64,000 nt of DNA from Stigmatella ashevillena (lineage in GTDB: Bacteria > Myxococcota > Myxococcia > Myxococcales > Myxococcaceae): contig NZ_JAQNDM010000002.1 of NCBI RefSeq assembly GCF_028368975.1, positions 1,612,001 to 1,676,000 on the forward strand. Reading direction: 5' to 3'. The notes under the pieces are model-generated. The model saw only the letters and a program-made list of their open reading frames with translations, made no database searches and was not told the origin of the DNA. Both the position numbers and the translations under genes were made by a program. Shown here piece after piece: positions 1,234 through 16,815 of this stretch; position 1 is the stretch's first letter; every line of letters begins with the position of its first letter.

Positions 1234-2122
1234 TCAACCCCCAGTGGATGGCTTTTCCATCCATACGGGCGGCGCATACCCGGCCGGCTTATCGCCGACA
1301 GAACTTCCGGCATTCAATATCCGTGACTGATACGCATCGGTGAACATCGGGTATGGGAAAGGCGGGGTCCGTGCACTCACCGTGTTGAGCCGCTGGCGCA
1401 ACCCCGCCGGGAGCTCGAAGTCCAACGCGGCGAGATTGTCTTCCAACTGGCTGACCTTGCTCGCGCCGATGATGACCGAGGCCAGCCCGGGTTGCGTGGC
1501 GGCCCAGTTCAACGCCACCTGCGCCATGCTGCGGCCCACCTCCTGGGCCACCTCTTCGAGAGCCGCCACCACCCGCCAGTTGTGCTCGGTGAAGAGGCCG
1601 CTCCCCGGCCCCGGCCCCTTTTGCGTGAGCCTGCCCTCGCCCGTGCCACCGCCCTCGCTCGGCCGGTATTTCCCAGAGAGCAGCCCCATCCCAAGCGGGC
1701 TCCACGCGGTGATGCCCAGTCCCAGCGTCTGCGCCAATGGCACGAACTCAGGCTCGATGTTCCGTTCGATCAACGAGTATTGCAATTGCAGGTTGATGAG
1801 CGGCGTCAGCGCATGTGCTTCGGCATACGTCTGCGCACGTCCTGCATACCAGCCTGGCACATCGGACAGGCCCGCGTAGCGGATCTTCCCAGCCCGCACC
1901 AGGTCGTCGAACGTCCGCACGACCTCCTCGGCCGGGGTGATCCGGTCCCACGTGTGCAGCAAGTAGAGATCAATGTAGTCGGTGCGCAACCGGCGCAGCG
2001 AGGCTTCCACCGCGCGCATCATGTTCTTGCGGCCATTGCCGCCCGCGTTCGGATTGCCAGACTCGACGTTGTTGCTGAACTTGGTGGTCAGCACGACGCG
2101 ATCACGCACCCCTGCCTCGGCA
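1234..2122 (-). CDS. Aldo/keto reductase, 3' exon (C-terminal three-quarters, downstream of the group II intron)
   Basis: This is the C-terminal part of an NADPH-dependent aldo/keto reductase (TIM barrel). The frame reads AEAGVRDRVVLTTKF, then a GNPNAGGNGRKN segment, YIDLYLLHTWD, the conserved GLSDVPGWYAGRA, and SPLGMGLLSGKY. The N-terminal quarter (catalytic Asp/Tyr region) lies at 4108-4334 on the same strand, with a group II intron between. Joining GT at 4109-4108 to T at 2122 recreates LGKFVAEAGVRDR, the expected continuous AKR sequence; the spliced protein would be about 371 residues. Read alone, a GTG at 2109 could start translation, but the product would lack the Tyr/Asp active site. 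Functional only if the intron splices; otherwise a disrupted gene. Confidence 0.8.
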
Positions 2123-2129
2123 GTCGGGT

Positions 2130-2230
2130 CGGGGACCGGCGCGGTGGTGTGCAGGCTGCCCTTGGCTGTGTCCGCCGTTTCCGGCTTCGTGCCCGTGTAG
2201 AGCGCGCCATCACTCCGTCTCCGGTCCCCG
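2130..2230 (-). ncRNA. Putative domain VI / 3' stem of the group II intron
   Basis: Perfect 10-bp inverted repeat, 2221-2230 against 2130-2139 (CGGGGACCGG / CCGGTCCCCG on the minus strand), enclosing about 81 nt, between domain V and the 3' splice site. It sits where domain VI should be but is much longer than the usual 30-45 nt, so it may carry an insertion or 3' extension. The branch-point A is not identifiable by eye. Confidence 0.5.
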
Positions 2231-2237
2231 CCTCATC

Positions 2238-2270
2238 GAACCGGACAGGCGGATTTCCCGCATCCGGCTC
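2238..2270 (-). ncRNA. Group II intron domain V
   Basis: On the minus strand the 33-nt element begins GAGCCGGATGCGGG, has an AAAT-containing tip, and ends CCGTCC-like/CGGTTC. This is the GAGCC...GGTTC hairpin with terminal loop and bulge that defines bacterial group II intron domain V. It starts 12 nt after the reverse transcriptase stop, as is usual. Confidence 0.88.
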
Positions 2271-2282
2271 GCCGCGAAGGCG

Positions 2283-3593
2283 TCATCTCATCGGGGTTAT
2301 GATTCCTTTCGGCAGGGCGCCCGCTTTCGCGGCGGTGTAGTACCGGATGCGGTAGTCGTTGAAGAGACCCCACATCCTGTACACGACGTCGCTACTCCAC
2401 CTCGTCCAGCCGAAGCCCCTTCGCTTCAGTTTCTTCACCGCGAACCGTCTCACCTTGAGTTCGACCTGCCACTTCACCTTGTCGAATGCTCGGCTCGAGT
2501 TCCCCACTCGGAAGTAGTTCACCCAACCGCGAAGGACCGGGTTGACTTGGACCACCGCCTCCTGCACCGACAGGTGCCGGCTGCCGTGGAGGACATCCCT
2601 GACCTTGCGGAGGACCTCGGTGAGCTTCTTCTTTCGCGGGCTCGTGTGTGCATACCCCTTCCGGATGGTGGGGTTCGGCTTCCAGCGGAACTCGAAGCCG
2701 AGGAACGCGAACATGGCCCCCTTCTCGGTCAGCAACACCGTCCGGGTCTTCTCCTTGTTCAGCTGCACGCCGATGGCCTCCGCTTCTTCGCGGATGCGCT
2801 CCAGCGCACGCTCCGCCCACCTCCATCCTCGCTTCGAGTTGAAGGTGAGCACCACCATGTCATCGAGGTACCTCACATAGGTGAGATAACCTTTGCCCTT
2901 CCCCAGGGCGTGGTCCAAGTCGTTCAGCGCCACGTTGGCCAACAGCGGCGAGAGCGGAGACCCTTGCGGGATTCCGCACCCACCCGTGCTCTTCAGGAAT
3001 TGCTTCACCAGGGCGAGCACTCGGCCGTCTTGGACTCTGCGCGCCACCTTCTCCATCATCCGGTCGTGCCGAATGGTGTCGAAGAAGGACTTCAAGTCCA
3101 CATCCACGGCCAGGTGCTTCTGGTGGTTCATCCCCTTGCGCACTTCGTCCACGGCCTGATGTGCCGAGCGCCCAGGTCTCGCCCCGAACGAATGTGCCGA
3201 GAAGTCGGCTTCGAAGACGGGTTCCAGCAGCAACCGAAGCGCGCCTTGGACCACCCGGTCTCGAATCGTTGGAATCGAGATGGTGCGGACCTTGCCGCCC
3301 TCCTTTGGAATCTCTCTTCGTCGGTACGGCTTGGGGGTGTACCGCTCCTCCTCCAACTCCCGTGCGAGCTCCGACAGGAACTCGCCGCGTCCCTGGCTCT
3401 CGATGGCCTCGAACGTCACGCCGTCCGCCCCGGGAGCACCGCCATTGTGGCGGGCTTCGAGGTAGGCGGCTTCGAGGGTCTCCAGCCGGGTGAGGTGAAC
3501 GTACATTCCCCAGAAACGATGCATCGGGGCGGATTTCGCCTGATGGCCTATCCTCGTTCGAAGCTCCTGCAGACTGATGGTGGGCTTTGTCAT
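2283..3593 (-). CDS. Group II intron reverse transcriptase/maturase
   Basis: About 436 residues from the ATG at 3593 (MTKPTISLQELR); the frame stays open upstream to 3650. It is the intron-encoded protein that copies intron RNA into DNA and assists splicing. RT landmarks in order: GAPGADGVTFEAIE, YTPKPYRRREIPK, VRTISIPTIRDRVVQGAL, the palm motif DLKSFFDTIRHD, GIPQGSPLSPLLANV, and YLDD near residue 242 (most group II RTs have YADD). The thumb/maturase region X contains GWVNYFRVGNSS. The protein ends about 30 residues after that, so there is no HNH endonuclease domain. It lies inside intron domain IV. No frameshift or stop is seen, so the element looks intact. Confidence 0.93.
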   Translation of the reverse strand: MTKPTISLQELRTRIGHQAKSAPMHRFWGMYVHLTRLETLEAAYLEARHNGGAPGADGVTFEAIESQGRGEFLSELARELEEERYTPKPYRRREIPKEGGKVRTISIPTIRDRVVQGALRLLLEPVFEADFSAHSFGARPGRSAHQAVDEVRKGMNHQKHLAVDVDLKSFFDTIRHDRMMEKVARRVQDGRVLALVKQFLKSTGGCGIPQGSPLSPLLANVALNDLDHALGKGKGYLTYVRYLDDMVVLTFNSKRGWRWAERALERIREEAEAIGVQLNKEKTRTVLLTEKGAMFAFLGFEFRWKPNPTIRKGYAHTSPRKKKLTEVLRKVRDVLHGSRHLSVQEAVVQVNPVLRGWVNYFRVGNSSRAFDKVKWQVELKVRRFAVKKLKRRGFGWTRWSSDVVYRMWGLFNDYRIRYYTAAKAGALPKGIITPMR

Positions 3594-4107
3594 CCCGCTC
3601 CTGCCTCGCTCCTCCCTCGGAATGCCTCCGGTAGGGCCCCTTCGCTCCACGGGCGTTACCCCGCTTCGCAGCTACTACGGACCCATCCGTCGGGCTCTCG
3701 CCTTCGCCGGGCTTCACCTTTCGGCTCGCCCGGCTACCTTGCTTCCGCGGGCTTTCTCCGCGGGGCGAGGAGCCCTTCCCTGTTTCAACCCATGGCCTTG
3801 TGCACGTGCCGTGGCCTTTACCCCGCCGAGCGGTCCTTCCCCTGGTCAACTTCGGAACGGACCTGCGGCCTTCGCCATGATTGTGGTGACTCAGCGCTCG
3901 GAACCTATCTGCTTACGGGGCCTCGACCGGCCGTTCATCGCGTCGTTACGGCCCGCGCACTCGCTCATCCCGCCCAGGGCGGGACTTTGTCGGTGGGCTT
4001 CGCTCTCGGGCATCTCCCCCGCGAGCGCCACCCCAGCTATGCGGCTTCGACCTGTTGCCGCTTCGGGACTCTCACCCTACGGGTCCATGGGTACCTCCAG
4101 GCATCAC
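3594..4107 (-). ncRNA. 5' ribozyme section of the group II intron (domains I-III)
   Basis: These 514 bp between the 5' splice site and the reverse transcriptase start have no supported gene. By position they must hold intron domains I-III and the proximal half of domain IV. The extreme 5' end reads GTGATGCCTGG (GTGTGATGCC if counted from 4109), resembling the GUGYG consensus. Individual helices and exon-binding sites were not resolved. Confidence 0.65.
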
Positions 4108-4334
4108 ACAAACTTGCCGAGCATCGTCTCGCTCGTGCCTTGGGTGTAGAAGTCGGCGGTATCCAAGAAGTTGCCGCCCGCGGCCAGGTACCGGTCGAAG
4201 ATCGCGCGCGAGACCTCTTCCGGCGAACCCCACGCCCCAAACAGGCCGTCGGTTCCGAACGTCATGGTACCGAGCGCCAAGGGGCTGACACGAAGGCCTG
4301 AACGGCCAAGGGCGTAGTATCGATCAATGGGCAT
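4108..4334 (-). CDS. Aldo/keto reductase, 5' exon (N-terminal quarter)
   Basis: Starts at the ATG at 4334 (MPIDRYYALGRSGLRVSP), preceded by the AAGGAAG ribosome site 10 nt upstream. It shows the AKR N-terminal hallmarks: LGRSGLRVSPLALGTMTFG, then NFLDTADFYTQGTSETMLGKF, which carries the catalytic Asp and Tyr (D..FY). Without splicing the frame runs a few codons into the intron and stops at TGA 4106-4104, giving a useless 77-residue peptide. The rest of the enzyme is at 1234-2122. A palindromic operator and a TetR gene lie directly upstream on the same strand, which suggests the reductase is repressor-controlled. Confidence 0.8.
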
Positions 4335-4360
4335 GGGAGTGCTTCCTTTCGTGGGCAAAT

Positions 4361-4380
4361 ATTGGACTGGACAGTCCAAT
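4361..4380. promoter_or_regulatory. Perfect palindromic operator, probable TetR binding site
   Basis: attggactggacagtccaat: two perfect 9-bp arms (ATTGGACTG / CAGTCCAAT) around 2 bp. It is 27 bp upstream of the reductase ATG and 41 bp downstream of the TetR gene on the same strand. Size and symmetry fit a TetR-dimer site. A degenerate copy lies upstream of the TetR gene itself. Confidence 0.72.
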
Positions 4381-4421: not shown

Positions 4422-5006
4422 CTAAGACGCCTTCAACCCCTCGAGTGCGAAGAGGGCGATGTCTCGAAGCGCCTCGGGGGTCGAGCCCGCCTTGGCGCTG
4501 ATCCGCATGCCCCGGATCGTCGAGAGGAGAAAGCGCCCCGCCGCGCGCTCGTCCGCCGAAGCGCGAACCTCTCCCTTGCGCTTGGCTTCCTGCACGACGC
4601 GCTCGAACGCGGCTTCACAAAGCATGCTGGCGGACTTCACCATCGATGCGACCTCGGGATCCAACGTCGCGAGCTCTGCGGTCGCGTTCACGGACAGGCA
4701 GCCTCGGGCCAGCTCACTGGGACTCTGATCCGCGATGGCGAGCAGCACCTTTCCGATCGCCGACAGCGGCGAGGCCGCGGTCCGCAGGTTCTCGAAGAGC
4801 TCCGCGCCCGTCTCGGCTTGGTAGTACCTCAACGCTTCGAGGTAGATCCGGCGCTTGTCGCCAAAAGTGTCGTACATGCTCTGGCGCCCGATGCCCATCG
4901 CCCGCAGAAGGTCGTCGGTCGAGGTCGCCTCGTATCCCTTTTCCCAGAAAACGAGCATGGCCCGCTTCAACGCCTCATCGCGATCGAACTCTTTGGTGCG
5001 TGCCAT
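4422..5006 (-). CDS. TetR/AcrR family transcriptional regulator
   Basis: About 194 residues from the ATG at 5006 (MARTKEFDRDEALKRAM); an in-frame GTG at 5012 is an alternative. The N-terminal TetR_N helix-turn-helix covers roughly residues 6-52, with FWEKGYEATSTDDLLRAMG followed by MYDTFGDKRRIYLEAL. The C-terminal ligand domain begins its core with LARGCLSVNATAELA, typical of the TetR subgroup that often controls aldo/keto reductases and oxidoreductases. The regulated reductase is next downstream on the same strand, with a perfect palindrome between them. It is therefore probably the local repressor, responding to an unknown electrophile or carbonyl. Confidence 0.9.
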   Translation of the reverse strand: MARTKEFDRDEALKRAMLVFWEKGYEATSTDDLLRAMGIGRQSMYDTFGDKRRIYLEALRYYQAETGAELFENLRTAASPLSAIGKVLLAIADQSPSELARGCLSVNATAELATLDPEVASMVKSASMLCEAAFERVVQEAKRKGEVRASADERAAGRFLLSTIRGMRISAKAGSTPEALRDIALFALEGLKAS

Positions 5007-5024
5007 CCTCACTGCATAAAGATT

Positions 5025-5042
5025 CTGGACTCATCTGTCAAT
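5025..5042. promoter_or_regulatory. Degenerate operator upstream of the TetR gene
   Basis: TGGACT (5026-5031) and TGTCAA (5036-5041) form a partial inverted repeat resembling the half-sites of the perfect palindrome at 4361-4380. It lies about 20 bp upstream of the TetR start and could give autoregulation. The match is imperfect (4 of 6 paired positions). Confidence 0.3.
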
Positions 5043-5154
5043 TAATCCAGCAACCCGTGTGCGACAATGAGGCACCCAAGACACCTCCCTGCTCTCAAGT
5101 AGGCAAGGGTAAGCTTCTGGGCTGGCCGAGGGCTTCTCCTGTAGAAGCGGCGGA

Positions 5155-5520
5155 ATGAAGAATGAAGTCTTGGTGCTCTCCTACGCAGGCTGTGGAACCT
5201 GCAAGAAGGCCCTCCAGTGGCTGAACCAGCACGGGGTGGCCTACCGCCTCCGCGCCATCGTTGACGCGCCTCCCACGCAGGCGGAGCTTGCCCAGTGGGT
5301 GCCCCAGAGTGGTGTGTCCGTGCGCAAGTGGCTCAACACCAGCGGACAGAGCTACCGCGCCCTGGGCAAGGAGAAGGTGGACGCCGCCAGCGACGCACAG
5401 CTCATCCGCTGGCTCGCGGCGGACGGAAAGCTCGTCAAGCGGCCCGTCCTGGTCCAAGGCAACACGGTGCTCGTCGGCTTCAAGCCCGAGACCTACTCGC
5501 AACACCTCTCAGGCACGTAA
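5155..5520 (+). CDS. ArsC/Spx-like thioredoxin-fold protein (arsenate-reductase family)
   Basis: 121 residues. The N-terminal strand-loop VLSYAGCGTCKKALQWL carries a CxxC active site (CGTC, about residues 14-17), followed by the ArsC/YffB/Spx family features SVRKWLNTSGQSYRALG and LVKRPVLVQGNTVLVGF. The family holds glutathione- or thioredoxin-dependent arsenate reductases, YffB-like proteins and Spx regulators. The CxxC rather than CX5R motif makes true arsenate reductase uncertain, so this is better seen as a small cytoplasmic thiol oxidoreductase. The downstream lyase gene starts 41 bp later and may be co-transcribed. Confidence 0.85.
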   Translation: MKNEVLVLSYAGCGTCKKALQWLNQHGVAYRLRAIVDAPPTQAELAQWVPQSGVSVRKWLNTSGQSYRALGKEKVDAASDAQLIRWLAADGKLVKRPVLVQGNTVLVGFKPETYSQHLSGT

Positions 5521-5561
5521 ACGCTGTACCGCCCTCCTCTCCCCCATCCCACGAGACTACC

Positions 5562-6809
5562 GTGACGCATCGACATCTCAGCAGAGGCGAATTTCTCGCC
5601 CTCTCAGGCCTGCTGGCAGGCTCCTCGTTTCTGTCTCACACGGCCGCAGCCGCTCCCAACAAACCGCCCCCTGCCAGTGGAAGCGCGGGCGCGCGCGGGG
5701 CCAAGCCCGGTCCGGCCAAGCCCGAGCGGGCACAATGCGAGCGCTTGATGTGGCAGTGCCGGGCCTCCCTGACCCAGGGCGCCACCGAGGACTTGAGCAC
5801 CGAACTCATCCGGATCGGCGAGTGGCTCGGCCGCCAAGGCATCGCGGCGGACATGTATGGCTACGGCGAGTTCATCCAGTCCTTCGAGCGGAACATCGCC
5901 GAGCGGCTTGGCTTCGAAGAGGGGTGTTTCATGCCCACGGGCACCATGGCCCAACTCTGTGCGCTGCGTGTCTACGCGGACGAGAGCACCAACCGGATCG
6001 TGGGCGTCCACCCCTCGTCCCATCACGTCCTGCACGAGGACGACAGCTACTCGGTGCTGCACGGCCTGCGCGCCGAGATGCTTGCGCCCTGGTCCAGGCC
6101 CTTGCTTGCCCGTGACGTGAAGAATGCCCAGGAGCGTCCAGGGGTGGTCAGCGTCGAGCTGCCCGTGCGCTGGCTGGGCGGGCAACTCCAGACCTGGGAG
6201 CAACTGGAGGAGCTCAAGCGCACGTGCCGGGAACTTGGCGTGAAGTTCCACATGGATGGTGCCCGATTGTGGGAGTGCCAGCCTTTCTACAACCGCTCCT
6301 ATGCGGACATCTGCCGTGGCTTCGACTCCGTGTACGTGTCCCTCTACAAGACGGTGGGCGCCATCGGAGGAGCCGTGCTGGTGGGTGGGCGCAACTTCAT
6401 CAAAGAAGCACGCCTCTGGCGGCACCGGCACGGAGGAAATCTCTTTCAGATGCTGCCCTACGTGGCCTCCGCGGCGATGCGCCTGGAAGAAGCACTGGCC
6501 CGTCTTCCGGGCGATGTCCAGCGCGCGAAGTCCCTGTCCGAGGGGTTGGCCGCCGACTCCCGCCTCACGGTGCTTCCCAGACCGGTCCAGACCAGCATGT
6601 TCCACGTCTTCTTCCGGGGAGAGCCCGCGGCGCTGGTGAAGCAGCGCGACCGCATCGCACGGGAGCAGGGCCTCTGGGTCGCGGATGAATTCAACGACAC
6701 GCGCGTCCCTGGCGTGGTCGAGGTGGAATTGCAAACAGGAAAAGGGTTCGAGAACGTCGACATCAAGGACGCCGTGCGGGCCTTCCTCTCGTTGCTCGAG
6801 CCTGCATAA
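5562..6809 (+). CDS. Exported PLP-dependent beta-eliminating lyase / threonine-aldolase-like protein
   Basis: Start taken as the GTG at 5562, giving about 415 residues; upstream extension of the frame overlaps the ArsC-like gene. The first 30 residues (THRHLSRGEFLALSGLLAG, then a SHTAAAA cleavage-like site) look like a Tat-type signal with only one Arg of the usual pair. The rest is a fold-type I PLP enzyme of the threonine aldolase/tyrosine phenol-lyase family: FMPTGTMAQLCAL, HPSSHHVLHEDDS, KFHMDGARLWE with the cofactor-binding Asp, and SLYKTVGAIGGAVLVG with the Schiff-base Lys. The substrate is unknown. Either the protein is exported folded through Tat or the leader is vestigial. Confidence 0.82.
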   Translation: MTHRHLSRGEFLALSGLLAGSSFLSHTAAAAPNKPPPASGSAGARGAKPGPAKPERAQCERLMWQCRASLTQGATEDLSTELIRIGEWLGRQGIAADMYGYGEFIQSFERNIAERLGFEEGCFMPTGTMAQLCALRVYADESTNRIVGVHPSSHHVLHEDDSYSVLHGLRAEMLAPWSRPLLARDVKNAQERPGVVSVELPVRWLGGQLQTWEQLEELKRTCRELGVKFHMDGARLWECQPFYNRSYADICRGFDSVYVSLYKTVGAIGGAVLVGGRNFIKEARLWRHRHGGNLFQMLPYVASAAMRLEEALARLPGDVQRAKSLSEGLAADSRLTVLPRPVQTSMFHVFFRGEPAALVKQRDRIAREQGLWVADEFNDTRVPGVVEVELQTGKGFENVDIKDAVRAFLSLLEPA

Positions 6810-8393: not shown

Positions 8394-8445
8394 TCCACCG
8401 GCCGGGGTCGCTGGCCCGTCCGGATCGGCGCTACACTGCACGGGC

Positions 8446-10941
8446 ATGACGCTCCCCCCCGGCCTGGGTCTCGCGCCCGGCCACCGCGTGAAGTGGATCG
8501 ATGGCCGCATCGCCGTCGAATCCGACGATGATCGCAGCCGCCTCCGCGCCGCGCTGGAGCGCAACCTCGTGGCCGAAGACGAAGGCCGCACGCTCATTCT
8601 TGGTGGCCAGATCCGCGCCCACCTCAGTGCCCCCGCTTACGTTGAGCCGCTCACGGCCTTCGAGGCGCGTTTCCTCGCCGACAACGACGTGCCCCTGTCG
8701 CTCCCCACCGGCACGCCTGCGTTCTCACCGCGCACAGACCTCCATACTCACTTCGCTGGGGCCCTTCCCGGGAGGATCCTCGTCGAGCTGGCCGCTGCCA
8801 CGGAGGGGGTCACCGTGCCGCGAGGTGTGCTCGCAGAGGCAGGCATCGATGCTCGCCAGGATGTCCCCGCCGCCGCCCTCAGCACGCTGGCGCGAGAGCG
8901 GCTCTCGCGCAGCTTCGATGTTCCCCTCGACCGGCAGATCACGTTCCAGGACATGGAGCGCCTCTACGCACGGCGAAGTCCCCTCACCAAGCACCCCCGC
9001 CTCTTCGTTCCACAGCTCTGGGCCATTGCCCGGGAGTTCGCCACCCACGGCGTACGCTATGCCGAACTCTCGCTGTCCACGGCGGTAGAGCCCGAGGTCC
9101 TCGCCGCGCTTCATGCCTCGCTCGACAGCATCGAAGCAGACAGCGGTGTACGCCTCCGCTTCCTCGTGGCCTTGTCCCGCCACGACGACCTCGAGTGGGA
9201 TCTCGATGTCCTCGAGCGCCTCGAGCAGTGTCTTCCCAGCCGTGCCATCACGGGCGTGGACTTCATGGGTCATGAGACATGCTCCACGCGGGCCTTCGTA
9301 CCGGTCCTCGAGCGTGCCGGGGCTCTCGGAGAGGCGCGGCCTGGTTTCGTGGTCCGCGTGCACGCAGGGGAGAACCCTGCGTTCCCGGAGAACGTCCGCG
9401 AGGCTGTCCGCACGCTGCTGCCCTTCCCAGGAATCGAGATCCGCATCGGCCACGGGCTCTACGGCGTCGACGATGAGACCCTGGCCTCCATGGCCCGCAA
9501 CTCGGACCGGGTGGTGGTGGAGTTCAACCTCACCTCCAACCTCGCCCTCAACAACATCCAGACCACGCTGCAAGTGCCGCTGCGACGGTATGTGGATGCT
9601 GGCGTCTCGGCCGTGCTCGGGAGCGACGGCGCCGGCCTCTACGGCACCTCCGCCACCGATGAAGCACGCGCTGCCCTCGCCTGCGGCCTCGACGAGCAGC
9701 GGCTTGCCTGGCTCCGGCACACGGAAGACGCGCTGCTGAAGAAACGCCACGAGAACGAACGCACCCAACCTCTGCTCGGTGACTGGCTCCCCCCTCCGCC
9801 CGCCCCCCGGAGGCACTTCACCCCGGCCCGCGCCACCGAGCTCGCGGCGCTGCGCGGCTCGGTGCGGGCGGCCCAGGAGCAGAGGCTTCGCCAGATGGGG
9901 GCCACCGTCACCCAGGAGGTGCCCGCCCTGGCCGGACGCCCCCTCCTGTGGCTCGCGGGGGCGTGGCGTCACGCATTCGCGGCCTGGTCACCGGAAGAAA
10001 TCCGAAATGCTTCCGAGATCCTCACGGAGGTCCTGCGTGGCCTCGCCTCCCGCGGGGGCCTTCTCCTGACCGGCGGGACGTGCCACGGAATGGAAGGGTT
10101 GAGCCACGGCCTTGCCGCTCAGGTGGGCGTCGATGTCCTCGGCGCCATCGTGGAGGAAACGCTCGCGGAGGACCTCGACGCTCGCGTGCGGACCTTCTGG
10201 CGCTGTGCGCGCTCCTTGTACGAGAAGGCCGCGCCCGTGGTTCGCCTGGTGCGCGACGCACACGGGCTCGGGCTGTTCCTCGGCGGAGGCCTCATTGTCG
10301 CGGACGAGCAACAAGCGGCCCACAACGTCCGTGCCCGGCACGTGATGCTGTCCGGACTGAGGGGCGCCGCGGTGGACGCCGCGCGTGCCAGCCAGCACGT
10401 CCGCTTCGTTGACGACGCGGCAAGCATCCTGGCTGCACTCGATGACACACGTCCGTGGGGCCAGCTCCGCTACCCCGGCCCCAATGACGCCGCGGACATC
10501 GTCGTCATCCGGCGCGGCTCCCTCGGCGAGGACGAGCTGCTGCTGATCCGGCGCCACGACGACAGCGACGCCGCCGCAGGACGGATGTCCTTGCCCGGGG
10601 GCTTCGTTCACCCGGGCGAGGCGCCGCGCGACGCCGCCGTCCGCGAGCTTCTCGAAGAGACAGGGCTCCGGATTCCAGCAGCCGCGCTGAGCCCCGTTGC
10701 CATCGTGGCCGGAGGAGGACGCGACCCGCGCGACACGGACGAGCGGTGGGTGCGCAGCCACGTCTTCGCCGTCCGCATTGACGGCGAGGACGCCACCCCC
10801 CACGGCACCTCAAGCAATCTCGTCCTTGGAGGCTCGGACGCCGCGGCGGCGCTCTTCGTCTCCAGCACCCACCGGCCACGCCTGGCCTTTGATCATGACA
10901 GCCTGGTCACCCAGGCCCTGGCGGTGCTCTCCCAGGGCTGA
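8446..10941 (+). CDS. Three-domain fusion: adenosine deaminase - SLOG/LOG-like Rossmann domain - Nudix hydrolase
   Basis: 831 residues with three apparent enzymes. (1) Residues about 95-440: metal-dependent adenosine deaminase family, with H100-T-H102, HAGEN at 306-310, GHGL with H336, and GSDGAG with D394. These are the four metal ligands and the catalytic Glu/His set. (2) About 500-665: a Rossmann-like SLOG/LOG-type domain with LLLTGGTCHGMEGL (539-552) and LGLFLGGGLIVADE near 608-620. (3) About 690-830: Nudix hydrolase with a perfect Nudix box at 719-741 (GGFVHPGE then RELLEETGL). ADA deaminates adenosine-type purines, Nudix cleaves nucleoside diphosphate derivatives, and SLOG domains bind or process nucleotide ligands. 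One chain with all three suggests coupled purine-nucleotide turnover or a nucleotide-based conflict system. The N-terminal ~95 residues are unassigned. No obvious Shine-Dalgarno site. Confidence 0.85.
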   Translation: MTLPPGLGLAPGHRVKWIDGRIAVESDDDRSRLRAALERNLVAEDEGRTLILGGQIRAHLSAPAYVEPLTAFEARFLADNDVPLSLPTGTPAFSPRTDLHTHFAGALPGRILVELAAATEGVTVPRGVLAEAGIDARQDVPAAALSTLARERLSRSFDVPLDRQITFQDMERLYARRSPLTKHPRLFVPQLWAIAREFATHGVRYAELSLSTAVEPEVLAALHASLDSIEADSGVRLRFLVALSRHDDLEWDLDVLERLEQCLPSRAITGVDFMGHETCSTRAFVPVLERAGALGEARPGFVVRVHAGENPAFPENVREAVRTLLPFPGIEIRIGHGLYGVDDETLASMARNSDRVVVEFNLTSNLALNNIQTTLQVPLRRYVDAGVSAVLGSDGAGLYGTSATDEARAALACGLDEQRLAWLRHTEDALLKKRHENERTQPLLGDWLPPPPAPRRHFTPARATELAALRGSVRAAQEQRLRQMGATVTQEVPALAGRPLLWLAGAWRHAFAAWSPEEIRNASEILTEVLRGLASRGGLLLTGGTCHGMEGLSHGLAAQVGVDVLGAIVEETLAEDLDARVRTFWRCARSLYEKAAPVVRLVRDAHGLGLFLGGGLIVADEQQAAHNVRARHVMLSGLRGAAVDAARASQHVRFVDDAASILAALDDTRPWGQLRYPGPNDAADIVVIRRGSLGEDELLLIRRHDDSDAAAGRMSLPGGFVHPGEAPRDAAVRELLEETGLRIPAAALSPVAIVAGGGRDPRDTDERWVRSHVFAVRIDGEDATPHGTSSNLVLGGSDAAAALFVSSTHRPRLAFDHDSLVTQALAVLSQG

Positions 10942-12963: not shown

Positions 12964-15900
12964 TCAGTGGACCGTCCGGGTGCCCGGCTCCTCTTCATCA
13001 CCTTGCCGGTCGCGGAGAGGCTCTCCCCCCGCCAGCAGGGAGAGCAGGTCCTTCGTGGTGAGACGCGCCGCGACCTCCGTCCCTTCGAGCACGCCCGCCA
13101 CCAGGGCGCGCTTGTCCGAGTGGAGTGAGAGAATCTGCTCTTCGATCGTTCCGCGAGCGATGAGCCGGTACACGGTCACCGGCCGCGTTTGTCCGATGCG
13201 ATGGGCACGATCCGTCGCCTGGTCTTCGACCGCCGGGTTCCACCACGGATCCAAGTGGATGACATAGTCGGCGGCGGTGAGGTTGATGCCCGTGCCACCC
13301 GCCTTGAGCGAGATGAGAAATATCTCTCCTTCGCCCTCCTGAAACGCTTGGATCCTCTTGGCGCGCGCAACGGGGGGCGTCGAGCCATCCAGGTACTGGT
13401 ACGTGAAACCGACGCGCTCCACCTCTTCCCGGACAAGCGCGAGGTGCGAGGTGAACTGGCTGAACACCAGCACCCGGTGGCCCTCGCTTTTCAGTTCCTC
13501 CAGAAGCTCGAGGAGGCGTCTCATCTTCGAGGACGAGACGTCCGACTGGGCATCATAGAGGCGGGGATGCGAAGCAAGCAGTCGCAACCGGGTGAGCGCC
13601 GCCAGCACCTGGAAGCGCTGCTGCTCATCACGAAGGCCCTTGCCTTGAGTGCTGACCTCCGCGACCGCCGCGAGCCGCGCATCCTCATAGAGCGTCCACT
13701 CCTCTTCGGAGAGCGCCACCGGCACTTGGATCTCCGTCCGCGAGGGCAGCTCTCGCGCAACCTCCTGCTTCGTGCGCCGAAGCAAGAAAGGACGCAGCAC
13801 GCGCGACAGGGCTGCGCTCGCCTCAGGCTCTTTCCCCCGCTCAATGGGCGCGGCAAAGCGCTCCCGGAACTGCTCCCAACTGCCCAACAGTCCCGGAAAG
13901 ACGATCGCGAAGAGGCTCCACAGCTCGCCGAGATGATTCTCGAGCGGCGTTCCCGAGAGCGCGATGCGGAAACCCGCGTTCAATTGCCGTGCAGCCCGGG
14001 CACGCCGGGTACTGGGGTTCTTCAACGCCTGCGCCTCGTCGGCGACAAGGGTCGCGAACGAAATGGCCTCCAGCCGCGCCGCATCCCGCACCAGCAAGCC
14101 GTAGCTCACGATGAGCACGTCGTGCTTCTTGAGCTTCGCCAGGCATGCCAGCCGGTCTGCCTCCTCCGCGTAGAGAATCGGGCGAAGGCTCGGCGCGAAG
14201 CGTTGGATCTCCTGAACCCAGTTGAAGGCGACCGAGGTTGGCGCGAGGACCAGCGCGGGACCGAGCCGGGCACGATCGAGAAGCACCGCCAGCGCTTGCA
14301 CGGTCTTCCCAAGCCCCATGTCATCCGCGAGGCAAGCACCGGCACCCCAGGCCGCGACCCGGCTGAGCCACGCGTGGCCCTCCACCTGATAATCGCGCAG
14401 CGTGGTCCCCAGCGAGGCCGGAGGTTTCGGCTTGAGCGACAGCGACGAGGCAAGGCGCTCCGTCAGAAGCTGCCAGGAGGGAGCCGCTTGGACGTCCGCC
14501 CCCGCGTCGCGCAAGGCGCTGATGGCCGGAACCGCGCCCGGCGAAAGCTCTACCCGGTTCTTTCCCAGAAAGGCGTGGTCGGCGACCGCCAGCAAGCGCC
14601 TCCGCAAGGTCTCGCTGAGTTCGACCCACCGGTGCGCATCGACGCGCACGAAGCGCTTCTGCCGCCGGGCCGCATCCAGAAGGACCGCAAGCTCGAGCCT
14701 TCCCGCTTCGACTTTCAGCTCGCCCGAAACGCCGAACCAGTCTCGCTTTCGCTCGACCTGCACCCTCAATGCGTCGGGGCCACCGGAGGAGGTAATGACC
14801 GGCTTCTCGTCCACCCACTCGACTTCGAGGCCCGCTGGGGGCTTCTGCAAGGCGGCCACCAGCTCCAACGCGCCCTCCGTGTCACCGAGCCGGAAGCAGA
14901 AGGGAGGCCCCTCCTCAGCGGCCGAGAGGGGCAGCGATGCAATGTCCGCACGTGCGCGCTCCTCTTCCCGCAGCAACTGGCGGCGCACGTAGCCCCGCTC
15001 GCCACCGCGGGAGAGCAGGACATCACGAGGGCCTACACCCGGATGGAACAGCGGCGCGCCCGGTCCTGGCCGTACGAGCAGCTCGAGTTCGAGCGACACG
15101 TCAGGAAGCAGGCGCAGGCGGACGACGGTGGACAGCTCCGGCTGGAGCTCACGCCCTTTCAACGTCTGCGGAACCACCAGGGGAAGGCGCGTTTCGAGGC
15201 GGGCCAAACGCTCCAGCAACTGCTCGTGACTCTCGGGAGGAAACCGGTCGCCATGCTTCTCCAGCACGCTCCAGAGCTGCCGTGCCTCTTCATTCACGTC
15301 GATGAGCAGGCATCGGCCCCGTTGCTCTTCGACGGTGAACAGGGGCTCGCCAGGAGAGGCCGTGCGCAGCAGCGCACTCAGCAGCTTCGGGTTGAACCGC
15401 TCCCCTTCAATGGAAGGCTCCAGGCGGATGTGGTCCTCCGCGGCAAGTGCCGTGAAGCCCAGTTGCACGCGCCTCACCTCGAGGGGTGTTTCCGGGCTTA
15501 GTTCGAGCGCTACTCGGGGATGACCGGCCAGCGAGAGGAAGGCCCGGGAAGGAAACGTCCCTGCCGCGCGGGACGCAGGAGCCCAGGAGACGAGGTGTTC
15601 GGCGATGCGCAGGTCCTTCTCGGCGAGCCATTCGCGATGATCCTCGAGCAACCGCGCCGCCGTCATCCGCGCGCCGGAACTCAACGTGCCCCGGCGGGTC
15701 TGCTTCTTCACGAGGGGCGACACGGTCAACATGCCGAGTTCATGCTCGATGAGCCACCACACCTCGATCGTGGCGCGGGGCTTCGCCGCCTCTGCCTCGA
15801 ACAGCTCGAGTTCCTTCAGGGCACGCGCCCACGCTGGACGCAGAAGCTCCTCGGCGAGCCGTCTTGCCTCTTCGCTCCGGACGGTGTCCGCCAGCAGATC

Positions 15901-16815
15901 GAGGACCGTGTCGATGAGCGCGAGCGCGTGGACGCAGCCCTTTGGCCGAACCGAGCAACTGCACTCCACCCGGCCCGCTCCCCCACTGGGGAACGTCAAC
16001 CGGGCCGAGACCCCCACCGTTCCATAATCCGGTCCCCCTCGAACGACCCGTTCCCGTTCCTTCCACGTGAGCGCGCAGGCGGCCACATCGAAGCTCCAGG
16101 ACTCCAAGGAGCGCCGCTCACGGGACCGCGGTGACACATGGGGCCGAAGCGTGCGGCGAACCTCCAGCAGACGGCTCCACAGCGGCGCCAGCAACGCGTC
16201 CCCGTGCTGCTCCCGCCGCGCGGCCTCCTCGGTGAGCGCCCGCCGCACTGAGCCCTCCTCCTCCCGCAGGGAGGCCCACGCCGCCTCGGTGAGCGCCGTT
16301 TCCAGCCCCTTGCCCCGCGCGCCGACATGACGGAGCGCCCCCTCTCTCGAACCGACATCCCGGAGGGCAAGACCGCCCAGGACATGGCGAAGCCCGTTGC
16401 GCTGCGCCTCGTTGATGGCCAGGTCCTGGATGAGAACGACCGCGGAGACCGCGAGCATGTGCCGGACGTGGTGCTCCTCCGCCCATCGCTCCAGCGCGTC
16501 TCGCGTCGCGAACGGCCCTTCGGGCGACTCCGCCACGGCGGCACCTTGCTGTGCGAGAAAGGAAAGGCCGAGGGCGACGGCGTGCTTGCACACCACTTGC
16601 CTCACCGGGCACGTGCAGTTGGACACGAGCGTTCCGCTGAGGGCGCTCACCCGGACCCGGTACTCCGACGTTCCCACCACGAGACCCTCGAGCGCATCTT
16701 TCTCGAGGATGCAGGAGAGGACTCGCCCCTCCCGCCAGTACGCCTCACCGCGGGCAAAGGCGCCTCCCGCGGCCGTGCGAAGAGTCTCGGAGGTGAGCAG
16801 CGTGGGTAACGACAT
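12964..16815 (-). CDS. SWIM zinc-finger SNF2 family helicase (DEAD/DEAH-type ATPase)
   Basis: 1,283 residues. The N-terminal SWIM zinc finger is C67-x-C69...C76-x-H78 (CTCPVRQVVCKH), and a second CxC...CxH-like motif (CSCSVRPKGCVH) lies near residue 290. The C-terminal half is a complete SNF2 motor: DDMGLGKT (motif I, about 828-835), VADEAQALKN (motif II, near 923), SGTPLENHLGELWSLF, the DUF3670-adjacent region before the motor, and SLKAGGTGINLTAADYV plus TDRAHRIGQTRPV in the helicase C lobe. Such bacterial RapA-like/SWI2 proteins translocate on duplex DNA and remodel bound proteins. Common in myxobacteria, usually as single genes. It is flanked by a convergent TetR gene and an upstream lactate dehydrogenase gene 224 bp away; no supported gene lies in that gap. 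Confidence 0.93.
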   Translation of the reverse strand: MSLPTLLTSETLRTAAGGAFARGEAYWREGRVLSCILEKDALEGLVVGTSEYRVRVSALSGTLVSNCTCPVRQVVCKHAVALGLSFLAQQGAAVAESPEGPFATRDALERWAEEHHVRHMLAVSAVVLIQDLAINEAQRNGLRHVLGGLALRDVGSREGALRHVGARGKGLETALTEAAWASLREEEGSVRRALTEEAARREQHGDALLAPLWSRLLEVRRTLRPHVSPRSRERRSLESWSFDVAACALTWKERERVVRGGPDYGTVGVSARLTFPSGGAGRVECSCSVRPKGCVHALALIDTVLDLLADTVRSEEARRLAEELLRPAWARALKELELFEAEAAKPRATIEVWWLIEHELGMLTVSPLVKKQTRRGTLSSGARMTAARLLEDHREWLAEKDLRIAEHLVSWAPASRAAGTFPSRAFLSLAGHPRVALELSPETPLEVRRVQLGFTALAAEDHIRLEPSIEGERFNPKLLSALLRTASPGEPLFTVEEQRGRCLLIDVNEEARQLWSVLEKHGDRFPPESHEQLLERLARLETRLPLVVPQTLKGRELQPELSTVVRLRLLPDVSLELELLVRPGPGAPLFHPGVGPRDVLLSRGGERGYVRRQLLREEERARADIASLPLSAAEEGPPFCFRLGDTEGALELVAALQKPPAGLEVEWVDEKPVITSSGGPDALRVQVERKRDWFGVSGELKVEAGRLELAVLLDAARRQKRFVRVDAHRWVELSETLRRRLLAVADHAFLGKNRVELSPGAVPAISALRDAGADVQAAPSWQLLTERLASSLSLKPKPPASLGTTLRDYQVEGHAWLSRVAAWGAGACLADDMGLGKTVQALAVLLDRARLGPALVLAPTSVAFNWVQEIQRFAPSLRPILYAEEADRLACLAKLKKHDVLIVSYGLLVRDAARLEAISFATLVADEAQALKNPSTRRARAARQLNAGFRIALSGTPLENHLGELWSLFAIVFPGLLGSWEQFRERFAAPIERGKEPEASAALSRVLRPFLLRRTKQEVARELPSRTEIQVPVALSEEEWTLYEDARLAAVAEVSTQGKGLRDEQQRFQVLAALTRLRLLASHPRLYDAQSDVSSSKMRRLLELLEELKSEGHRVLVFSQFTSHLALVREEVERVGFTYQYLDGSTPPVARAKRIQAFQEGEGEIFLISLKAGGTGINLTAADYVIHLDPWWNPAVEDQATDRAHRIGQTRPVTVYRLIARGTIEEQILSLHSDKRALVAGVLEGTEVAARLTTKDLLSLLAGGEPLRDRQGDEEEPGTRTVH

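Follow-up and report, generated by a model that had tools for sequence, protein, structure and literature searches.

One gene of Stigmatella ashevillena (source assembly of 10.95 Mb) encodes a protein in which a domain of the adenosine/AMP deaminase family, a SLOG domain, and a Nudix hydrolase domain are joined in a single chain. The gene lies in a stretch of 64,000 nucleotides (contig NZ_JAQNDM010000002.1, positions 1,612,001 to 1,676,000), called the window below. It is encoded on the forward strand at window positions 8446–10941 as an uninterrupted frame of 831 codons with an ATG start. A preliminary description, drawn from the letters of the window, had proposed one chain of 831 residues containing a deaminase, a middle domain, and a Nudix domain, and the boundaries of the frame agree exactly with it. 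The gene and its parts are arranged as follows.

8446–10941, forward strand: deaminase-SLOG-Nudix fusion gene, 831 amino acids; nine full-length members were found, the window's included
8446–8712, forward strand: residues 1–89, strand-rich N-terminal part of unassigned kind, with strands at 7–59 in the full-length model
8713–9780, forward strand: residues 90–445, adenosine/AMP-deaminase barrel, from Pfam, fold match, and residue alignment
9781–9939, forward strand: residues 446–498, linker with a long helix (460–483 in the full-length model)
9940–10449, forward strand: residues 499–668, SLOG domain, from a domain model, structure matches, and conserved columns
10483–10941, forward strand: residues 680–831, Nudix hydrolase domain (Pfam, 3.1e-16); the final three bases are the stop codon
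10600–10668, forward strand: Nudix box, residues 719–741
8432–8437, forward strand: TACACT, a -10-like box 8 nt 5' of the ATG, kept in genomes G000, G005, G004, and G001

A conserved three-domain fusion

Two Pfam families, A_deaminase (4e-27) and NUDIX (3.1e-16), match the window protein above their curated cut-offs, and no above-cut-off Pfam match is found between them. With PADLOC, the Nudix part also matches PDC-S07 (1.2e-5). Full-length homologues with 80–92% identity are present in six of the seven same-genus genomes, the window's included; the seventh, G003, shows no homologue. The protein at locus L021 (H. versicolor) is 81% identical, and three Archangium-type metagenome-assembled genomes (MAGs) carry the full-length fusion at ~40% identity. 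The preliminary description had called for homologues to be collected and their domain order compared, and this order is identical in all nine full-length members, down to ~40% identity. Two contig-end fragments agree with it. The fragment in G008 (L025) comprises SLOG and Nudix, and that in G075, a genome from elsewhere in the phylum, comprises the second half of the deaminase followed by SLOG and Nudix; in G075 the frame starts right at the contig end, with ~45 initial codons that are unlike the deaminase.

A search of 195 Myxococcota genomes with a SLOG profile gave matches at E ≤ 0.01 in 17, of which 11 are members of the family, all with E < 1e-40. The matches in the other six genomes (G183, G189, G058, G056, G097, and G163; E 8.5e-14 to 0.009) were left out because they were read as other SLOG-, LOG-, or DprA-like stretches. 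The match in G183 (L052, G183:C14:123714-127163; E 8.5e-14) is a SLOG-like domain; the open frame around it is 2440 codons long and may encode a giant multidomain protein. Presence of the fusion is patchy, as 10 of the 11 members fall among the 96 genomes (a deduced number) of the window's family. Beyond Myxococcota, the search comprised a narrow pattern scan of species representatives, which would overlook a member as divergent as G075, together with the phage, plasmid, and viral collections.

Pairwise dN/dS ratios (nonsynonymous over synonymous substitution rates) were calculated with a Nei-Gojobori script for the six same-genus genes (15 pairs). The values are 0.11–0.17 for the deaminase, 0.04–0.18 for SLOG, 0.14–0.23 for Nudix, and 0.12–0.29 for the linker; the N-terminal part is the least constrained, at 0.15–0.47. 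Purifying selection thus acts on all three domains, and the three-domain fusion is a real and conserved combination. It is a new architecture assembled from known domains and is seen solely in Myxococcota within what was searched. A fusion of SLOG, Nudix, and adenosine deaminase was not found in the papers searched or in the titles and abstract openings listed, although an earlier mention is possible in the 2015 survey by Burroughs, which reportedly defined SLOG.

Upstream of the gene, the retention of the TACACT box in the shared locus suggests a leaderless, separately transcribed gene. Among the six same-genus genes compared, the box is absent from G006 and G002. A hairpin 5' of the start codon has a folding z-score of only -1.36 and was not used.

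Architecture of the deaminase, SLOG, and Nudix domains

In mouse adenosine deaminase (ADA), the metal and catalytic set is composed of H15, H17, H214, E217, H238, and D295, with His238 as the catalytic histidine. The set in the fusion, H100, H102, H306, E309, H336, and D394, is invariant in seven of seven covering rows of alignment A1 and five of five of A2. We take H100, H102, H306 (of the HAGEN motif), and D394 to be the metal ligands and H336 to be the catalytic histidine, corresponding to His238. H100, H102, and D394 had been listed as ligands in the preliminary description and remain so; H336, listed with them, is replaced by H306. Together with the profile match and the barrel fold, these residues place the domain in PF00962, the adenosine/AMP deaminase family.

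Asp19 and Asp296 of classical ADA contact the nucleoside, with Asp296 directly following the metal-site Asp295. In an alignment to solved ADAs, the Asp19 site is Ala104 and the Asp296 site is Gly395 in every covering row, and the aspartate pair of the classical adenosine-specific enzyme is therefore absent from the fusion deaminase. The Asp296 site is variable elsewhere: it is Asn in 21 of 22 readable ordinary Myxococcota ADAs and Asp in one, and Gly is also found there in two ADA-like proteins of relatives, such that the Gly395 change alone is not unique. The combination of Ala104 and Gly395 suggests a nucleotide-like substrate.

Structural comparison of the deaminase model with VIA gives Z scores of 23–27 against AMP deaminase, ADA-like proteins, ADA, and Cad1, a range that does not separate these classes. 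The best matches are to AMP deaminase (Z 26.7 and 26.3) and to an ADA-like protein (26.2). An ordinary ADA separate from the fusion is present in all 11 fusion genomes, matches the CARF_ADA model at 3e-59 or better, and sits on another contig or far from the fusion. In a tree of 29 ADA sequences, the single branch that unites the six fusion deaminases is long, deep, and fully supported; no sister group is claimed because the branches are very long and the root is a midpoint root.

The middle segments of three proteins were also compared with Pfam. Sub-threshold matches were obtained to YAcAr (0.061, in a homologue) and LDcluster4 (0.12, in the window protein), both of which are SLOG families, and the third segment gave nothing. 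As the model of the 831-residue chain is poor in residues 613–656, the SLOG domain was folded alone, from six sequences, with a mean pLDDT (predicted local distance difference test) of 83 and a pTM (predicted template modelling score) of 0.83. The 50 VIA rows listed for this model have Z scores of 12.4–16.5 and are nearly all members of the SLOG superfamily by title, comprising molybdenum cofactor (Moco) carrier proteins and TM1055 (14.9–16.5), LOG and related proteins (13–15), TRPM channels (12–14), and DprA (12.6–12.8); one row is a ciliary assembly. The top Foldseek match is LOG Rv1205 (E 4.5e-6), and AMP-bound LOG entries are among the structures matched. VIA and Foldseek single out no subfamily, with Moco carrier, LOG, and TRPM proteins lying within ~2–3 Z of one another. 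When the SLOG profile was compared with sequences of solved structures, four were matched at E ≤ 10, all LOG/lysine-decarboxylase-like and all weak (E 0.048–0.47).

The SLOG domain carries the motifs TGGTxxGxEG, [E/D]K594, in which Lys594 is preceded by Glu or Asp, GGGxxVxDE621, and NxRxR, with the TGGT and GGG motifs invariant in seven of seven rows. A Rossmann-type fold and Gly-rich loops thus assign the domain to the SLOG superfamily. The preliminary description had read the middle domain as SLOG with two Gly-rich loops and had named the lack of a true SLOG fold in residues 500–665 as the result that would overturn it; structure prediction reveals the fold in residues 499–668. LOG phosphoribohydrolases are characterized by a GGxGTxxE motif and by a catalytic Arg and Glu. 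In the fusion, Glu621 occupies the Glu position of this motif, and the region of the catalytic Arg holds Lys594; both residues are invariant, and the phosphoribohydrolase motif itself is incomplete, reading GGGxxVxDE in place of GGxGTxxE.

The Nudix domain contains the hydrolase box GX5EX7REUXEEXGU, which in the window protein is perfect at residues 719–741, as first described. The glutamates E734, E737, and E738 are invariant in eight of eight rows of A1 and five of five of A2. Members outside the genus have an insertion of 10–11 residues within the box and keep REXXEE, and L051 has EETT in place of EEXG. Searched against solved sequences, the Nudix profile matches 13 at E ≤ 1e-4. Eight of these are NrtR (two, an identity that we assume), NadM (two), TRPM2 (three, of which two are variants of one protein), or NUDT9 (one); the remaining matches are AraR (one), MutT-like proteins (two), and the entries 2fml and 3i9x.

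Genomic neighbourhoods and tests for a defence role

A neighbourhood with genes for an ArsC-like protein, a beta-propeller protein, the fusion, a ketoacyl synthase, and an SNF2 protein is shared by G000, G005, G004, and G001. Different neighbours are observed in G006, G002, and the Archangium-type MAGs. Because the neighbours in G006 and G002 are unlike those of the shared locus, the fusion gene has changed place within the genus. The preliminary description had allowed that homologues might be confined to conserved housekeeping loci, and the differing neighbours speak against this. The family scans covered part of each 20-kb neighbourhood, with the genes of L024, L026, L027, and L028 left out; in the part scanned, no partner gene is common to all loci, which fits a self-sufficient enzyme.

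Of 10 window neighbours compared with PADLOC models, two gave matches. One is a reverse transcriptase, whose matches to CRISPR-associated reverse transcriptase models are generic. The other is an SNF2/SWIM helicase, encoded on the reverse strand at 12964–16815, two genes downstream of the fusion, which matches DpdE end to end (2687 bits). A TGT/DpdA-type gene was not found near it: of three genomic TGT matches, even the closest is separated from it by ~360 kb of the same contig. For this reason no Dpd system is claimed. Ten neighbours from L030, L022, and L023 were compared as well; a kinase matched PD-T4-6 models, and the other nine had no match. The region of the window at 1234–4379 on the reverse strand is composed of two pieces with a group II intron-type reverse transcriptase open reading frame (2283–3650) between them; the N-terminal piece (4104–4379) is an aldo/keto reductase by Pfam, and in G005 the two pieces are just 12 nt apart.

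The G002 locus (L030) has a distinct upstream region. Directly upstream of the fusion, at 9010–9995, are an integrase gene, which ends ~70 bp 5' of the fusion start codon, and after it a short repeat that recurs twice more, flanking bases included, elsewhere in the G002 genome. To us this repeat resembles the 3' end of a tmRNA; no gene is predicted at this position by ARAGORN. The matches listed between the G002 flanks and relatives are scattered pieces with no shared locus. An AbiJ_NTD3 gene (4932–5849; Pfam 5.4e-31) is located ~4 kb upstream of the fusion, and its protein has no PADLOC match at E ≤ 1e-5. The kinase matching PD-T4-6 models lies ~7 kb upstream.

In RADAR, a gene for the RdrA ATPase lies next to the deaminase, and none was found among 10 window neighbours with PADLOC, in which the presence of an RdrA model was left unchecked, or among nine with Pfam. 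In Kongming, genes for KomB (HAM1-like) and KomC (SIR2-like) lie alongside, and no genes of these types were found among nine window neighbours with Pfam. Across the neighbours scanned, no RADAR, Kongming, or CRISPR partner appears by Pfam or PADLOC name. The fusion itself matches the PADLOC model CARF_ADA (1.4e-15), at model positions 259–556 of 605. It has no N-terminal CARF domain of the kind expected of Cad1 and other CARF-ADA proteins, and the matched part is also found in ordinary ADAs. This match is unspecific, because ordinary deaminases match the same model at 1e-55 to 1e-70, and it was rejected as a link to CRISPR; CARF_ADA is matched at E ≤ 1e-8 in 182 of 193 Myxococcota genomes. 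Matches were obtained in 10 phage and 32 plasmid records, none of which covers 80% of the query, and those listed (all 10 phage and 15 of the 32 plasmid matches) are deaminase-only or Nudix-only. The 42 pattern matches in viral contigs include no relatives. A nucleotide-conflict role, which the preliminary description had put forward, thus finds neither a partner gene among the neighbours scanned nor a phage or plasmid record over 80% of the protein, and a role in antiviral defence is possible and unsupported.

Proposed function and comparison with known systems

Because the deaminase and Nudix sites are intact, the adenosine-reading residues are replaced, the SLOG cleft is of LOG/TRPM type, and the Nudix domain is probably related to ADP-ribose proteins, we tentatively favour, at somewhat less than even confidence, the reading that one gene encodes a self-contained processor, which would act on 5'-substituted adenine nucleotides of ADP-ribose type. 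In an ADP-ribose-like (NDP-X) compound, the diphosphate would be split by the Nudix domain and the AMP-type part bound in the LOG-like SLOG cleft, possibly with cleavage of its base-sugar bond as well; the deaminase would strip the 6-amino group from a nucleotide and not from free adenosine. The role may be the clean-up or recycling of unusual adenine nucleotides. We infer the substrates, the order of the steps, and the physiological role. Two papers report base release from AMP-type nucleotides by LOG-type proteins, which may also remove non-canonical nucleotides (PMC9503650, PMC5940212). One of them describes protection against base analogues, partly HAM1-dependent, upon overexpression of yeast LOG1, and its authors propose that LOG proteins originally degraded non-canonical nucleotides (PMC5940212).

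Several observations weigh against this proposal. The ordinary ADAs fall just 1–2 Z below the AMP deaminase matches, and by fold the SLOG domain is matched best by a Moco carrier protein, ahead of LOG and TRPM. As the LOG motif is kept only in part and Lys594 is found in the region of the catalytic Arg, the SLOG domain may lack enzyme activity. In the Nudix domain, the two best profile matches, 2fml and 3i9x, have no assigned function, a single-sequence search retrieves mostly MutT-type proteins, and in the Archangium-type members the box is interrupted by 11 inserted residues. A proline ~15 residues after the Nudix box marks ADP-ribose Nudix enzymes. This position is Gly in the fusion, and the mark of the ADP-ribose enzymes is therefore missing; the proline is seen in 3i9x, 2fml, and NadM and is absent from NrtR as well.

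An alternative of lower probability, which merits consideration, is that the fusion is a regulated enzyme, in which SLOG serves solely as a sensor, comparable to that of ThsA or TRPM2: binding of an ADP-ribose-type ligand would activate the deaminase, and Nudix would destroy the ligand and so reset the switch. Two papers report that SLOG domains can be non-catalytic sensors of ADP-ribose derivatives, including variants of cyclic ADP-ribose (PMC9503650, PMC12948488), and a third reports that the SLOG-type region of TRPM binds ADP-ribose and opens TRPM2 (PMC13143021). The incomplete LOG motif and the pairing of SLOG and Nudix in TRPM2, whose structures match both domains, are consistent with such a switch. 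However, all rows retain Glu621 and Lys594, which lie at or close to catalytic positions of LOG, and a pure sensor would not require this.

It is unlikely that the protein is an anti-phage effector, in which an infection signal would be sensed by SLOG, inosine nucleotides would be produced by the deaminase in the manner of Cad1, and damage to the cell itself would be restrained by Nudix. The SLOG, Nudix, and ADA folds are all known from defence, and the patchy presence (10 of 96 family genomes), the changed locations, the DpdE match of the window SNF2 gene, and, in G002, the integrase and repeat together with the upstream AbiJ_NTD3 and kinase genes could be read in its favour. Against it stand a single locus common to four same-genus genomes, the SNF2 gene without its TGT/DpdA-type companion, the unspecific CARF_ADA match, and the lack, set out above, of partner genes among the neighbours scanned and of phage or plasmid records covering 80% of the protein. 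A further reading appears less likely still, namely that a TRPM2-like SLOG and Nudix module reads ADP-ribose-type signals and controls the deaminase on the same chain; such a one-gene, self-limiting switch for immunity or NAD stress would convert adenine to inosine nucleotide when ADP-ribose derivatives rise and would be reset when Nudix destroys the signal. Ordinary purine salvage by a bulky adenosine deaminase with incidental extra domains, which the preliminary description had considered equally, is the least probable, for although the deaminase catalytic residues are complete, all 11 fusion genomes have a separate ordinary ADA, both adenosine-reading aspartates are replaced, and all three domains are under purifying selection.

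If the activities are coupled, the fusion would be a compact natural example of a single chain that senses, edits, and erases nucleotides, and would connect bacterial SLOG/ADP-ribose biology with the SLOG and Nudix pair of TRPM2 and with Cad1-type ADA-fold immune effectors. If, as in the processor proposal, it is merely a clean-up enzyme, it would represent a new deaminase family for 5'-substituted adenine nucleotides.

The arrangement of the fusion is reminiscent of TRPM2 and the TRPM2 chanzyme, in which a single chain likewise carries a SLOG-type region (MHR1/2) followed by a NUDT9-homology domain, the N-to-C order seen here (Z 13.9 for the SLOG fold against the chanzyme; E 2.5e-7 for the Nudix profile). 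In contrast to these proteins, the fusion has no channel, and its SLOG and Nudix domains stand next to each other, with a deaminase attached. Cad1, like the fusion, combines an ADA-fold deaminase with a Rossmann-type domain (Z 23–26, 20–24% identity), but the fusion lacks the CARF part, reverses the domain order, and adds Nudix. Cad1 is reported to be a sensor-plus-ADA fusion that converts ATP to ITP in immunity (PMC11645235). Cad1 belongs to type III CRISPR, whereas no CRISPR genes are found among the fusion neighbours scanned, and no feature specific to a Cad1-like immune role is seen in the fusion.

The SLOG domain resembles LOG in its fold (Foldseek E 4.5e-6 to Rv1205) and in the alignment of the Gly-rich motif and Glu621, and differs from it in the incomplete GGxGTxxE motif, in Lys for Arg, and in identities of 11–20% in the structural rows. 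The Nudix domain is likened to the ADP-ribose Nudix domains of NrtR, NadM, and COG1051 by its profile matches and by RDxRD-type and LAFDH signatures; it differs from them in the Gly at the proline marker. In NrtR and NadM, the Nudix domain is fused to a DNA-binding or nucleotidyltransferase domain, whereas here it is joined to SLOG and a deaminase.

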